Origin: a virus | Strand: one strand, 5' to 3' | Length of the DNA stretch: 22,652 nucleotides | IMG/VR virus record: IMGVR_UViG_3300045110_000168 | Span: 1-22,652 of that record | Shown here: positions 19,839 through 22,652 of the stretch, piece by piece | Layout: every line of letters starts with the position of its first letter | Numbering within the stretch: position 1 is the stretch's first letter | Notes under the pieces: generated by a model | The model's database searches: none | What the model was told of the DNA's origin: nothing | The model's input: the letters and a program-made list of their open reading frames with translations, nothing else | Position numbers and translations under genes: made by a program

Positions 19839-20503
19839 TTTAACTCCAGGAGTTTGGCATCAAATTCTGATGCAATGGTATCTACAAGTTTCGGATCAAC
19901 GTGACGGATAAGAACTTCCATAAACAAACTAATTAGTTTGTTCAAATTTTGGTTGAGTTCACGGTTTGGGTCATGTATGCCAGTGAATTCGTGGAAGTAC
20001 TTAATCGCCTGCAAATCTCCAGAATCCACCAAACGACCAAGGCTGGTTTTCGCTACAGGGCGTACATTATTGAAAGCTTCTTCTGCACGCATCTCGTAGT
20101 AATGTTTGTTGGCGGTTCCTTTAAGAAGCACATTAAACTTGTGAGTCGTGAGTCCTACAGCCTTGAGCTTAATGGCTTTAGATCTTTTATCACTTACATC
20201 TACAAGTGAGTTGACGGCGATTACGAAAGATGGGTCTAGCTCATCTTTCTTCGCAACGCGACGGTAGGGGTCATATGTGGGAAGTTCTCTCTTTTCTAAA
20301 GCCTTGTTGATTGCTGGGAGCATCACCTTTAAAATAGAGAAGTCAGTTCCGTAAAGTTCGTTTAGCTGCATTCCTGTAGGATATTCTCCAGTGAGCCAAT
20401 ATCGAGCTTCTACTTGTGTAACGACTTGTTGGAGCAATGACTTATCGTACGATATCTCTACCACTTCATCTGTAGATGTGGGTTGTGAGAAATCTAACTC
20501 CAT
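19835..20503 (-). CDS. Probable terminase small subunit, 222 aa
   Basis: First gene of the late operon. The N-terminal half (about 20-75) looks like a helix-turn-helix segment. The C-terminal half (KLKAVGLTTHKFNVLLKG about 113-130, then LGRLVDSGDLQAIKYFHEFTG about 155-175) resembles small terminase subunits of the phBC6A51 kind, where GDlkAikyyhEltG closes the domain. This subunit would recognise the packaging site and load TerL. The ATG is six bases from the -10 box, so the mRNA is probably leaderless. TerL lies four genes further on. It could instead be a different DNA-binding regulator of the late operon. Confidence 0.55.
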   Translation of the reverse strand: MELDFSQPTSTDEVVEISYDKSLLQQVVTQVEARYWLTGEYPTGMQLNELYGTDFSILKVMLPAINKALEKRELPTYDPYRRVAKKDELDPSFVIAVNSLVDVSDKRSKAIKLKAVGLTTHKFNVLLKGTANKHYYEMRAEEAFNNVRPVAKTSLGRLVDSGDLQAIKYFHEFTGIHDPNRELNQNLNKLISLFMEVLIRHVDPKLVDTIASEFDAKLLELN

Positions 20504-20509
20504 GTTGGG

Positions 20510-20538
20510 AACGTATCACGTGCTCAAATGTTTGTCAA
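20510..20538 (-). promoter_or_regulatory. Leaderless late-operon promoter
   Basis: On the minus strand: perfect -35 TTGACA (20533-20538), 17-bp spacer, -10 TACGTT (20510-20515) preceded by TGA, an extended -10 (TGn). Six bases later is the ATG at 20503, so transcription should start at the start codon. This looks like a host main sigma factor promoter and is the only strong one seen for the leftward operon. Confidence 0.75.
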
Positions 20539-20636
20539 AATTTCTAAAAATAAAGGTTTTACTTGCTCGTTTTTTATTTAAAAATTTGTCTGCGTAATCG
20601 CCAAAAGAGGCAGTCGCATATATGGAGGACCAACCG

Positions 20637-20656
20637 ATGTTAGGCTGGCTTAACAT
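20637..20656. promoter_or_regulatory. Imperfect 20-bp palindrome, possible operator
   Basis: ATGTTAGGCTGGCTTAACAT has two 9-bp arms with one mismatch. Its first 18 bases recur as a direct repeat at 20705-20722 with four changes. The half site resembles DtxR/IdeR iron-regulator boxes (13 of 19 bases match the published consensus by eye for each copy), which is too weak to name a regulator. Confidence 0.4.
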
Positions 20657-20736
20657 TGGAGGGTAGGTACCCCTACCTTACTATGTTCGAATTTCAAACA
20701 CACTATGTTAGGTTGGGTTTACTGAATACGGTAAGC

Positions 20737-20750
20737 GGTACGACTGTACC
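20737..20750. promoter_or_regulatory. Operator-like dyad GGTAC-N4-GTACC (copy 1)
   Basis: Perfect 5-bp arms around four bases. An identical layout occurs at 20798-20811, 61 bp away. Both lie in the leader of the 107-aa gene, so they probably bind one dimeric repressor or activator. Confidence 0.5.
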
Positions 20751-20762
20751 AATAAAGGGAGC

Positions 20763-20792
20763 TTAACAATTGCGACCGCAACCTTTGCGATC
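20763..20792. repeat. Two 15-bp iteron-like units (degenerate)
   Basis: TTAACAATTGCGACC followed directly by GCAACCTTTGCGATC. They share the 15-bp period and the TTGCGAnC half with the six-unit array at 21644-21733, and a third partial unit (ACAAC) runs into operator copy 2. Confidence 0.5.
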
Positions 20793-20797
20793 ACAAC

Positions 20798-20811
20798 GGT
20801 ACACTTGTACC
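20798..20811. promoter_or_regulatory. Operator-like dyad GGTAC-N4-GTACC (copy 2)
   Basis: Same layout as copy 1, with flanks extending the symmetry to 8-bp arms (ACGGTACA and TGTACCGT). It covers the spacer and -10 of the weak rightward promoter candidate, which would suit a repressor. Confidence 0.5.
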
Positions 20812-20841
20812 GTGAATTACTATGCAGTCGAGTGCATAACA

Positions 20842-20865
20842 ATTCTTTGTTACCGCACAAAGAAT
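20842..20865 (+). other. Hairpin in leader of module 1
   Basis: Perfect 9-bp arms (ATTCTTTGT and complement) with a 6-nt loop. A smaller dyad, TATGCA/TGCATA, lies just upstream at 20821-20838, and a 6-bp GC hairpin (GCCCGG, 5-nt loop) at 20926-20942 precedes the gene. There is no T-run, so these are more likely leader structures than terminators. Confidence 0.5.
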
Positions 20866-20978
20866 CTTTGCCCGTAATGAGGAAACAAAGGTTGGCGCCA
20901 GTATCATTGTATTCGTAAGTGAGTTGCCCGGAGAGTCCGGGCCGTAGATGTCAGAAACGGAAGGGTAGGTGAAACATC

Positions 20979-21302
20979 ATGGCAAAGAAAGAATTTCCCG
21001 CCGATCGTGAAATGGTCGTCAAGGGTGCCGGTCCGGTCGTTCGATCGAATCAGGTAATCTTGGTCAAGGCTTACGCCGATCAAGACCTTGAGATCATTTC
21101 GGCTCAGCGTTCTTTCTATGAATCTCTCGCAAAGGTTCTTGCCGAATATCGTGCGGCTGATAATAAGCAGTACGATATGTTGACGTCCGGATATTCGGAT
21201 GCAACATGGGCAAAGGGTCTTGAGCGATTGGTCAAGAAAGATCCGGATAAGCCACGTGGTCGTAAGGCTGCACCAAAGGCTGATCCCGCCGAAGATTGCT
21301 GA
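20979..21302 (+). CDS. Conserved module protein A1, 107 aa, unknown function
   Basis: No family recognised. A paralogue (105 aa) is encoded at 21968 and is about 60-65% identical. The shared parts are the N-terminal VVKGAGPV-xx-SNQV segment, a central helical part ending in KQYDM-x-TSGY, and the basic C-terminal RLVKKDPDKPRGRK, then a Pro/Lys tail with Cys at the very end. The basic C-terminus suggests nucleic acid contact. The SD AGGTGA precedes the ATG by six bases. The gene is visibly richer in GC and in G/C-ending codons than its paralogue, so the two have different histories. It is followed by a hairpin and a 50-aa Cys-rich gene with a near-identical leader (AGGTGAAAC). Confidence 0.75.
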   Translation: MAKKEFPADREMVVKGAGPVVRSNQVILVKAYADQDLEIISAQRSFYESLAKVLAEYRAADNKQYDMLTSGYSDATWAKGLERLVKKDPDKPRGRKAAPKADPAEDC

Positions 21303-21321
21303 GATCGAAATGATCTCAAAG

Positions 21322-21348
21322 GGATAGGGTGGACTCTCCACCCTATCC
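21322..21348 (+). other. 12-bp hairpin between module genes
   Basis: Perfect 12-bp stem (GGATAGGGTGGA) with a 3-nt loop, 20 bases after the stop of A1. A smaller dyad, GAGATC/GATCTC (21301-21317), overlaps the stop. There is no T-tract. It may be a partial terminator or an mRNA processing or stability element that separates the levels of the two genes. Confidence 0.6.
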
Positions 21349-21382
21349 GATATACTCTCTATTGAAAGTGAGGTGAAACGAA

Positions 21383-21535
21383 ATGGAAACTTGCGAGTGT
21401 TGCGGTCGTTCGAGCAATACAGTCCACGTAGCGTGGTACTTGTACGATGACAACGCTGAGATTGAATTGTGCAGAAAGTGTGTGCAATCTCTCCGGGCGG
21501 AAGGTGAGACAGTAGAGCGGATGAAAGTAAGTTGA
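21383..21535 (+). CDS. Small Cys-rich zinc-binding-type protein B1, 50 aa
   Basis: The ATG follows GAGGTGAAACGAA, a good SD. The peptide has Cys4-x-Cys6-Cys7 at the start (METCECCGRSS) and a second Cys-x2-Cys (LCRKC, about 30-33), a pattern of a small zinc knuckle or ribbon. The C-terminal helix (VQSLRAEGETVERMKVS) is charged. Such mini zinc proteins in phages often bind host proteins such as RNA polymerase or sigma factors, but that is analogy. The stop lies two bases before the parS palindrome. The counterpart in module 2 (63 aa) also carries Cys-x2-Cys and Cys-x-Cys motifs, but they do not align well. Confidence 0.65.
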   Translation: METCECCGRSSNTVHVAWYLYDDNAEIELCRKCVQSLRAEGETVERMKVS

Positions 21536-21537
21536 GT

Positions 21538-21553
21538 TGTTTCACGTGAAACA
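21538..21553. promoter_or_regulatory. parS: parS centromere site, exact match to bacterial consensus
   Basis: TGTTTCACGTGAAACA is the 16-bp consensus parS recognised by chromosomal ParB in many bacteria, including the GTTTCACGTGAAAC core used in Streptomyces and Mycobacterium. The perfect palindrome extends to 18 bp (21537-21554). It lies in non-coding DNA between a stop codon and a terminator. No other CACGTG in the window has the flanks; the one near 20519 matches only the core. Confidence 0.8.
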
Positions 21554-21558
21554 ATTGA

Positions 21559-21596
21559 GCGAATAGCCCCTAGCCGAAAGGTTAGGGGTTATTCGT
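21559..21596 (+). terminator. Module 1 terminator
   Basis: Stem of about 17 pairs allowing G-U (GAATAGCCCCTAGCC with GGTTAGGGGTTATTC, plus two outer pairs) around a GAAA tetraloop, followed by GTTT. The U-tract is short, as is common in actinobacterial terminators. It ends 39 bases before the next -10 box. Confidence 0.8.
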
Positions 21597-21631
21597 GTTT
21601 GCGCCCTTCGTGCCTCCGGCGTCGCACTTCT

Positions 21632-21647
21632 GATTATAATACTGCAA
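21632..21647 (+). promoter_or_regulatory. Module promoter (TATAAT), copy 1
   Basis: GATTATAATACTGCAA with a perfect -10 at 21635-21640. The same 16 bases recur at the window end, and the upstream GTCGC is conserved too (14 bp before the -10 in both). The -35 is not evident. Transcription would start near 21647, inside the first 15-bp repeat unit, giving a leader of about 320 nt for protein A2. Confidence 0.7.
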
Positions 21648-21733
21648 AGCTTGCGTACGCAACTATTGCGAGCACAACTATTGCGCGCACAACAATTGTG
21701 ACCACAATAATTGTACTGACAATAATTGCGAGC
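21644..21733. repeat. Tandem array of six 15-bp repeats (CAA-N3-TTG core)
   Basis: Six head-to-tail units of exactly 15 bp, consensus RCAA-N3-TTGYGNNC. CAA at positions 2-4 and TTG at 8-10 are invariant, while the middle three and last four bases vary. A seventh unit begins (ACAA) and runs into the Fur-type palindrome. Each unit is a dyad, so it could bind a dimer on DNA or form a small stem in RNA. It starts directly at the promoter. Confidence 0.8.
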
Positions 21734-21735
21734 AC

Positions 21736-21756
21736 AAATGAGAATGATTCTCATTT
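21736..21756. promoter_or_regulatory. Perfect Fur-type palindrome (7-1-7), possible metal-regulator site
   Basis: AAATGAGAAT, one central G, and the exact complement. Its core, TGAGAAT-N-ATTCTCA, has the 7-1-7 layout of Fur-family boxes (Fur, Zur, PerR). It directly follows the 15-bp array. If functional, a host iron or zinc sensor would act downstream of the promoter as a roadblock. It may instead be an extra operator of the phage. Confidence 0.55.
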
Positions 21757-21790
21757 CTTTACCGGTACAAAACCGTAACCGGATTGTAAC

Positions 21791-21810
21791 AAACTATACC
21801 GGTACAGTTT
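21791..21810. promoter_or_regulatory. Near-perfect 20-bp palindrome with TACCGGTA core
   Basis: Ten-base arms with one mismatch. The core TACCGGTA occurs a second time at 21760-21767. Together with the GGTAC dyads of module 1, this suggests a shared regulator preferring CGGTAC half sites. Confidence 0.4.
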
Positions 21811-21901
21811 CTTCAATTTTTGATAGGGTCAAAGCTGCGCAAGCAATTCAGCGCCAGCTTCTCCCGCTGCAACTCGGAGCAGGTTCCTTGAAAATTGAAG
21901 A
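21810..21901 (+). ncRNA. Structured leader element upstream of protein A2 gene
   Basis: An 11-bp closing stem (21810-21820 with 21891-21901) encloses about 70 nt that can fold further: AGCTG-CGC near 21833 with GCGC-CAGCT near 21851 (one bulge), and CTGC/GCAG. This is the layout of a multi-helix leader such as a riboswitch or attenuator. No known riboswitch class is recognised. Confidence 0.4.
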
Positions 21902-21932
21902 TTAATTAGGCCAGGACTAGCCTTGCTATTCC
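21888..21932. repeat. Left arm of inverted repeat flanking the A2 gene
   Basis: Matches the reverse complement of 22301-22338: TTGAAA, then ATTAATTAGG, then GACTAGCC and TATTCCC are shared. This arm has seven extra bases (ATTGAAG) after TTGAAA, and there are a few other changes. In mRNA the two arms could pair around the whole gene. Confidence 0.5.
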
Positions 21933-21957
21933 CTTTTTCACCACTACACGAAAAAGG
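21932..21957 (+). promoter_or_regulatory. Hairpin covering the ribosome binding site of A2
   Basis: Perfect 8-bp arms (CCTTTTTC and GAAAAAGG) with a 10-nt loop. The 3' arm contains the AAGG of the SD, about ten bases before the ATG at 21968, so the folded form should reduce translation. Confidence 0.6.
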
Positions 21958-21967
21958 AAAAAACAAA

Positions 21968-22285
21968 ATGGCAACTAATCCAACCCCAAAAGAATTGGTC
22001 GTAAAGGGCGCAGGCCCTGTAATTACGTCCAATCAAGTCCTAATGGTTCAGGCATTTGCGAACCAGGACATTGAAACAATCAAAGCTCAAATGGTTTTCT
22101 TCGAGAACTTGAGCAAGGTTGTTTCTTCCTACAGGCAAGCAGCTTGCAAGCAATACGATATGGCTACAAGCGGCTATGTCAATGCTGATTGGCTCAATGG
22201 AGTTGAAAGGCTTGTAAAGAAAGACCCTGATAAGCCTCGGGGACGTAAAGCTACTGTCAAGCCAGACCCAGCAGATAATTGCTGA
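21968..22285 (+). CDS. Conserved module protein A2, 105 aa, paralogue of A1
   Basis: The ATG at 21968 was chosen because AAGGA lies upstream and the earlier in-frame ATG at 21923 would place the SD hairpin inside the gene. Like A1 it has VVKGAGPV, SNQV, a central helix, KQYDM-x-TSGY, RLVKKDPDKPRGRK and a terminal Cys, with substitutions spread evenly, so both copies are under selection. Codon use is more AT-rich than in A1. No known family; a small basic-tailed protein that may bind nucleic acid or a host protein. The hairpin over its SD and the long leader suggest tight control at translation. It is followed by a 69-nt gap holding the right inverted-repeat arm and the SD of the next gene. 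Confidence 0.75.
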   Translation: MATNPTPKELVVKGAGPVITSNQVLMVQAFANQDIETIKAQMVFFENLSKVVSSYRQAACKQYDMATSGYVNADWLNGVERLVKKDPDKPRGRKATVKPDPADNC

Positions 22286-22300
22286 GTAAATAAATTCACT

Positions 22301-22338
22301 GGGAATACTTGGCTAGTCTTGACCTAATTAATTTTCAA
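22301..22338. repeat. Right arm of inverted repeat flanking the A2 gene
   Basis: Complement of the left arm (21888-21932), starting 15 bases after the stop of A2 and ending just before the AGGAG of the next gene. Confidence 0.5.
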
Positions 22339-22354
22339 ATAGAAAGGAGACATA

Positions 22355-22546
22355 ATGGACGATTACGAGCCACCGCAATGGGTGAAAGACAATCAAATGA
22401 GAATTGAAATTCTCAAGATTGAAGCTTTCGCAAATGGAAGTCTTTATTACTTCCCTGACAATGACCCTGATAGTTGGGGTTATTGCGTTCAATGCGAACG
22501 TAATTCCATCTCGTGTGAATGCTACGATTCATACGATGAAGATTAA
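22355..22546 (+). CDS. Small acidic Cys-containing protein B2, 63 aa
   Basis: ATG preceded by AAAGGAGACATA, a strong SD (five bases). Very acidic, with aromatic residues at 30-41 (SLYYFPDNDPDSWG) and a C-terminal Cys-x2-Cys (YCVQCERN, about 44-47) plus Cys-x-Cys (CECYDSYDED, about 54-56), together a possible zinc site. It takes the place that the 50-aa Cys-rich protein holds in module 1. No family recognised. The acidic charge may mimic DNA or bind a basic partner, for example the basic tail of A2, but this is speculation. Confidence 0.65.
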   Translation: MDDYEPPQWVKDNQMRIEILKIEAFANGSLYYFPDNDPDSWGYCVQCERNSISCECYDSYDED

Positions 22547-22557
22547 TTCCCAAAAAC

Positions 22558-22596
22558 CCGAATAACCTACTAGCTCACAGCTAGTAGGTTATTTGG
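22558..22596 (+). terminator. Module 2 terminator
   Basis: Perfect 15-bp stem AATAACCTACTAGCT with loop CAC, extended by three more pairs (one G-U) to 18 bp. There is no long T-run. It resembles the module 1 terminator at its base (GAATA and TTATT) and again lies about 40 bases before a TATAAT promoter. Confidence 0.8.
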
Positions 22597-22634
22597 CGTT
22601 CTCCGCTTTATTTCTGCCAGCAGGTCGCGTTTAT

Positions 22635-22652
22635 GATTATAATACTGCAAGC
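22635..22652 (+). promoter_or_regulatory. Module promoter, copy 2 (runs to window end)
   Basis: GATTATAATACTGCAA is identical to copy 1, with -10 at 22638-22643 and GTCGC conserved 14 bp upstream. The last bases (GCAAGC) look like the start of another 15-bp array, so a third module likely follows outside the window. Confidence 0.65.

Follow-up and report, generated by a model that had tools for sequence, protein, structure and literature searches.

Exploitation of a host ParB by a phage without par genes is already known from one system, phage phi29, in which, according to PMC9437464 (citing Meijer et al. 2005), Spo0A suspends phage development, 'enabling spore entrapment' of the phage chromosome by Spo0J. 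The phi29 genome contains four TGTTCCACGTGAAACA sites, where 0.07 would be expected within 3 mismatches as estimated from control palindromes, and its relative Goe23 contains one exact and three one-mismatch parS sites. ParB-parS interaction likewise partitions the phage genome in the extrachromosomal prophages RedRock and Miko, which encode their own ParA and ParB, and the RedRock parS is of a type of its own, made of 8-bp direct repeats (PMC7157519). Finally, the integrative island SGI1, which is not a phage, exploits the partition system of another replicon, in this case the parABS of an IncC plasmid rather than that of the host chromosome, as described in PMC10954446. Here, we compare these systems with a host-type parS in a 22.6-kb virus record, an incomplete phage genome, the whole analysed stretch of which we call the window.

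Chromosomal parS has been described as 'mainly TGTTNCACGTGAAACA' (PMC7022226), and positions 21538-21553 of the window read TGTTTCACGTGAAACA, a 16-bp palindrome that matches this chromosomal ParB consensus exactly. The initial annotation had pointed out this 16-mer and suggested a search for further copies; the window holds this single one, with no second copy even at 3 mismatches allowed. Around the 16-mer, the perfect palindrome spans exactly 18 bp (21537-21554, unstranded, TTGTTTCACGTGAAACAA), as the annotation had stated, and it is one of four perfect palindromes of at least 14 bp in a scan of the window. Base composition puts the expected number of such sites in the window at 7.8e-6, and dinucleotides put it at 8.7e-6, close to the annotation's estimate of about 5 in a million. 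The site is indeed non-coding on the plus strand, where it starts 2 nt past the stop codon of gene B and lies ahead of the start of gene A', while the only open reading frames that cover it are mechanical minus-strand ones antisense to genes A and B.

The surroundings of the site combine small genes of unknown family with several kinds of repeats. Upstream lie gene A (20979-21302, plus strand, 107 aa), which is conserved in 4/4 close relatives, and gene B (21383-21535, plus strand, 50 aa), which carries a zinc-ribbon-like CxxC...CxxC arrangement; a family search with both yielded nothing above threshold, gene B giving only a sub-threshold Pfam match to UPF0167. The next plus-strand gene after parS, gene A' (21968-22285), shares 62% identity with its paralogue, gene A, and accompanies parS in both the window and the relative G001. 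Genes A and A' flank parS as a pair, and the tail of their products is basic and rich in proline, with cysteine as the last residue (LVKKDPDKPRGRK...C). Directly downstream of parS follows a hairpin with a 15-bp stem (21561-21594, plus strand), which is terminator-like with no clear T tail, was not called in a terminator scan, and co-folds with parS at -40 kcal/mol. Farther along, the region between parS and gene A' contains iteron-like 15-bp direct repeats of the CAACTATTGCGAGCA type (21660-21737, plus strand), of which two further copies occur before gene A at 20764-20796 and similar motifs occur in the equivalent regions of relatives. It also contains a palindrome (21739-21753, unstranded, TGAGAATGATTCTCA) that fits the 7-1-7 Fur-box pattern TGANAATNATTNTCA perfectly, where 0.02 such sites would be expected; this Fur-box-like site, absent from the relatives G001-G003, is possibly a second candidate host-signal site near parS.

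The phage itself is podovirus-like, with a P22-like portal, terminase, major head protein, S74-chaperone tail fibre and amidase encoded on the minus strand of the window and early genes on the plus strand from 20979 onward. Its close relatives are four contigs with terminases 93-94% identical, among which G001 (41,505 bases; 41.4 kb complete) represents a complete map because its two ends share an overlap of 145 bp at 99.3%. The genes of G001 include those for DNA polymerase A, a DnaB/AAA helicase, a PD-(D/E)XK nuclease, a SNF2-type helicase and endonuclease VII. WhiB, an actinobacterial regulator, is present in 3/3 relatives and, among 14 control genomes, in C. glutamicum only. Together with Arthrobacter, Microbacterium and Cellulosimicrobium as hosts of the closest cultured phages, WhiB in the relatives makes an actinobacterial host very probable. 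Two other candidate host markers were set aside: a terminase-profile search in genome contigs returned only ~30%-identical genes, nearly all from Clostridia, that gave no connection to the host, and the sole tRNA evidence was an odd tRNA-like call with an unreadable anticodon (a 2-nt call 'cc'), found in G001 (L131, 185-254) and G003 (L134, 7538-7608).

We detected neither ParB_N (PF02195) nor ParA-type AAA_31 (PF13614) in the window, G001, G002 or G003, and neither tyrosine (PF00589) nor serine (PF00239) integrases in the same set; these absences weigh less for the window and G002 than for G001, because both are incomplete. The initial annotation had called for such a search for ParA and ParB genes and had argued that a site without adjacent parAB would point to the host system, and the complete relative G001 does carry the site and no detectable ParA or ParB. 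With an exact consensus and a complete relative devoid of a ParA or ParB gene, host ParB is the natural candidate ligand. By contrast, plasmid-like maintenance, which the annotation had also raised, found no support: the searches turned up none of the integrase, ParA or ParB families, a phage-plasmid with its own parABS is not indicated by the neighbours of the site, which are genes A, B and A' rather than parA or parB, and a temperate integrating phage is disfavoured by the lack of any integrase family in the window or G001-G003. Like phi29, the phage is virulent-type, shows no detectable ParB_N (in the window and three relatives, one of them complete) and has a host-consensus parS in its genome. 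The placement is also similar, since one parS of phi29 sits right after gene 16, intergenic and before the early operon. Unlike phi29, with its four sites, sporulating Bacillus host and Spo0A control, the phage studied here has a single site and an actinobacterial host for which sporulation is not known, and it belongs to an unrelated family with unrelated gene content. It shares with RedRock and Miko the proposed partition of a phage genome through ParB-parS interaction, whereas it encodes neither ParA nor ParB and has no 8-bp direct repeats of the RedRock parS type.

Host-type parS sites occur in phages far more often than chance allows. Among IMG/VR viral contigs, at least 120 stretches contain the exact 16-mer, whereas three control palindromes matched to it in base composition occur in 1, 1 and 4 stretches. 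This is an enrichment of at least 30-fold, and one of the controls, TGTTACACGTGTAACA, itself resembles parS. Among the matches listed, 66 of 146 exact sites lay outside open reading frames of at least 60 aa, where ~14 would be expected (binomial 1e-29, for sites that are not fully independent and contigs some of which may hold host DNA). ParB_N was not seen in 46 of 50 parS-bearing records; of the 28 that reach at least 30 kb, 24 were without it. In cultured phages, the 18-bp query matched 217 records and two controls matched 1 and 30 (none exact), the carriers being mainly phages of Microbacterium, Listeria, Gordonia, Bacillus, Arthrobacter and Lactobacillus, along with unnamed and single-stranded ones; carrier genus names beyond the top ten accounted for at most 6 records each. 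No ParB_N match appeared in 10 of 12 cultured carriers tested, the two with a match being KaiHaiDragon and, weakly, Pureglobe5, so that a phage ParB-like protein has to be excluded case by case.

Several of these cultured carriers resemble the window phage in having exact TGTTTCACGTGAAACA in 1-3 copies and, in the tested records, no ParB_N: the Listeria A511/P100 group, the Lactobacillus Harbinvirus phages Lpa804 and Iacchus, Gordonia Woes and Orchid, Microbacterium OneinaGillian and Arthrobacter Racecar. They differ in being unrelated phages, and the Gordonia sites are embedded in longer palindromes. In Gordonia phage Woes (L144), exact parS sites occur at 2298-2313 and 2719-2734 near the right genome end, with small genes around them, each being the centre of a longer palindrome (e.g., TAGGGCAGTGTTTCACGTGAAACACTGCCCTA). 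In the Listeria A511/P100 group, the exact 18-bp parS is recurrent, and in AG20 it overlaps an annotated gene start. In the part of the literature covered, we found no report on host-type parS in Listeria, Lactobacillus, Gordonia or Microbacterium phages. The exceptionality that the initial annotation implied for the site is not borne out, given the many par-less phages with a host-type parS and the documented phi29 precedent. Phage-borne host parS is a known but thinly studied kind of element to which the window adds a case, its novelty having been overestimated at first.

Within its own phage group, parS is confined to some lineages. In G001 and in G004, a near-copy of it, the exact site is in the same place as in the window. 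G002 and G003 lack the site, as do, within 2 mismatches, both the closest cultured relatives and 50 wider ones taken from the terminase search. Directly after gene B, G003 has a terminator-like hairpin, and G002 has other genes. The distribution among G002, G003 and the 50 wider relatives implies that parS is not required in this group. Its dispensability in G002 and G003 favours an accessory rather than an essential benefit. Comparison of the flanking sequences showed a mosaic. Gene A of the window is nearest that of G002 (88%) and distant from that of G001 (62%), gene B of G001 is nearest that of G003 (83%) and distant from that of the window (60%), and the terminase of G001 is nearer G002 (98%) than the window (94%). 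Past the gene B stop codon, however, the window and G001 are mutually closest (85%) and have parS, the hairpin, the intergenic repeats and gene A' in common. Because the two are closest downstream of this stop codon and apart in the upstream genes and the terminase, the parS block behaves as an exchangeable module, a mosaic cis element with its upstream edge at or near the gene B stop; alternatively, it may be ancestral and have been lost twice. The site is identical in the window and G001, with the adjoining genes A and B only 62% and 60% identical. The surrounding block is conserved anyway; at its 85% identity, 16-24 identical columns would arise with a probability of roughly 1-5%, judged post hoc, so that the identity alone is a weak and not decisive sign of selection.

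Overall, we consider it very likely that host ParB binds the phage parS, because the 16-mer constitutes the complete canonical ParB recognition sequence and the domain search revealed no phage substitute. With parS present and the partner genes absent, the phage probably borrows the segregation machinery of its host. We infer that host ParB-CTP would recognise the site and close as a clamp, and that such clamps would slide along to adjacent phage DNA. The phage genome would thereby acquire a nucleoprotein label that normally marks the host origin region, and par genes of its own would be unnecessary. An infecting genome might then stay with the host nucleoid, or be partitioned along with it, during a slow or stalled infection, in a carrier or deferred state, as has been reported for phi29 and Spo0J. 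From our analysis, such retention or partition is the most likely benefit, one to which we give a little less than even confidence, and the reading as a whole, a loading site for the chromosomal ParB of an actinobacterial host with a retention or partition benefit, stands in our estimate at an even chance. Against it speak the single parS copy, the absence of the site from G002, G003 and the wider relatives, and the lack of any trace of lysogeny.

A ParB-dependent alternative is that the protein spreads from parS over the early operon and flanking promoters, where it would damp or time early genes or recruit SMC. The location of parS at the start of the early arm, between the A-B operon and gene A' and beside a repeat-rich intergenic region, fits such a transcriptional use, and ParB at an ectopic parS reduced adjacent gene expression on a test plasmid (PMC7022226). 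However, parS follows a stop codon instead of overlapping a promoter, and relatives run the same operon without it, which makes this use unlikely. Equally dependent on ParB is a decoy, in which many phage copies would titrate host ParB and upset chromosome segregation or the cell cycle to their own advantage: a single parS can load many clamps, the copy number climbs in lytic growth and no phage ParB is needed, but one site makes a weak sponge where several would be expected, and we regard this as improbable.

Readings without ParB are, taken jointly, also unlikely. In the transcript, the palindrome forms a stem of 9-10 bp that is capped by an ACGU loop, stacks ahead of the stronger hairpin and sits exactly between it and the stop codon, as would suit a 3' untranslated hairpin that aids termination, stability or processing and resembles parS only incidentally. 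Such a stem, however, requires neither an ACGT loop nor the exact 16-mer, G003 has the second hairpin only and no comparable stem, and the exact DNA sequence is found again in unrelated phages, at least 30 times as often as control palindromes, so we find an RNA element very improbable. The lineage-specific occurrence of parS in a mosaic block could also reflect an operator for a non-ParB regulator of phage or host, or a neutral passenger recombined from host DNA. Against the operator, G001 lacks a specific regulator gene, endonuclease VII being its sole gene with a recognisable domain that is missing from G002 and G003; against the passenger, a neutral 16-mer is unlikely to stay intact across diverged lineages or to be enriched outside open reading frames across phages. 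We therefore see little likelihood in either.

The broader pattern, exact host parS in many ParB-less phages, is a more interesting outcome than the single site. Tentatively, and with more doubt than confidence, we suggest that host-type parS may be a general, repeatedly acquired cis element of par-less phages whose hosts have a canonical ParB, which would recruit ParB, and perhaps SMC, for positioning, partition or the balance between lytic and deferred development; the window would then be a horizontally exchanged actinophage instance, in which the adjoining Fur-box-like site could supply a second host cue. Loading of host ParB on this phage, if it occurs, would make a segregation protein a direct participant in infection outside sporulating Bacillus. 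As phages that are simple to culture (Gordonia Woes, Lactobacillus Lpa804, Bacillus Goe23 and phi29) have exact or consensus parS and no ParB gene, the general question of whether phages use host centromere binding is answerable with existing isolates.

Further observations concern repeats and conserved DNA. The 23-kb viral contig IMGVR_UViG_3300037423_000235 (L296, L299) contains about eight copies of the parS variant TGTTACACGTGTAACA, which may represent a phage-specific centromere. At the locus studied here, DNA similarity of 20500-22652 to phage records was not found, and a sub-threshold plant microRNA match, the only hit to a known RNA family in the region, was judged to be chance. Downstream of the hairpin, CGCCCTTCGTGCCTCCGGCGTCGC is nearly invariant in four phages (window ~21602-21625; L126 ~6064; L127 ~5588; L129 ~5606), with flanks that have diverged to ~60-65%. 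Lastly, inverted arms of 38 nt with 82% complementarity (21885-21922 and 22311-22348) enclose gene A' and are largely conserved in G001; they could pair as a long-range stem in the RNA or delimit a mobile cassette.
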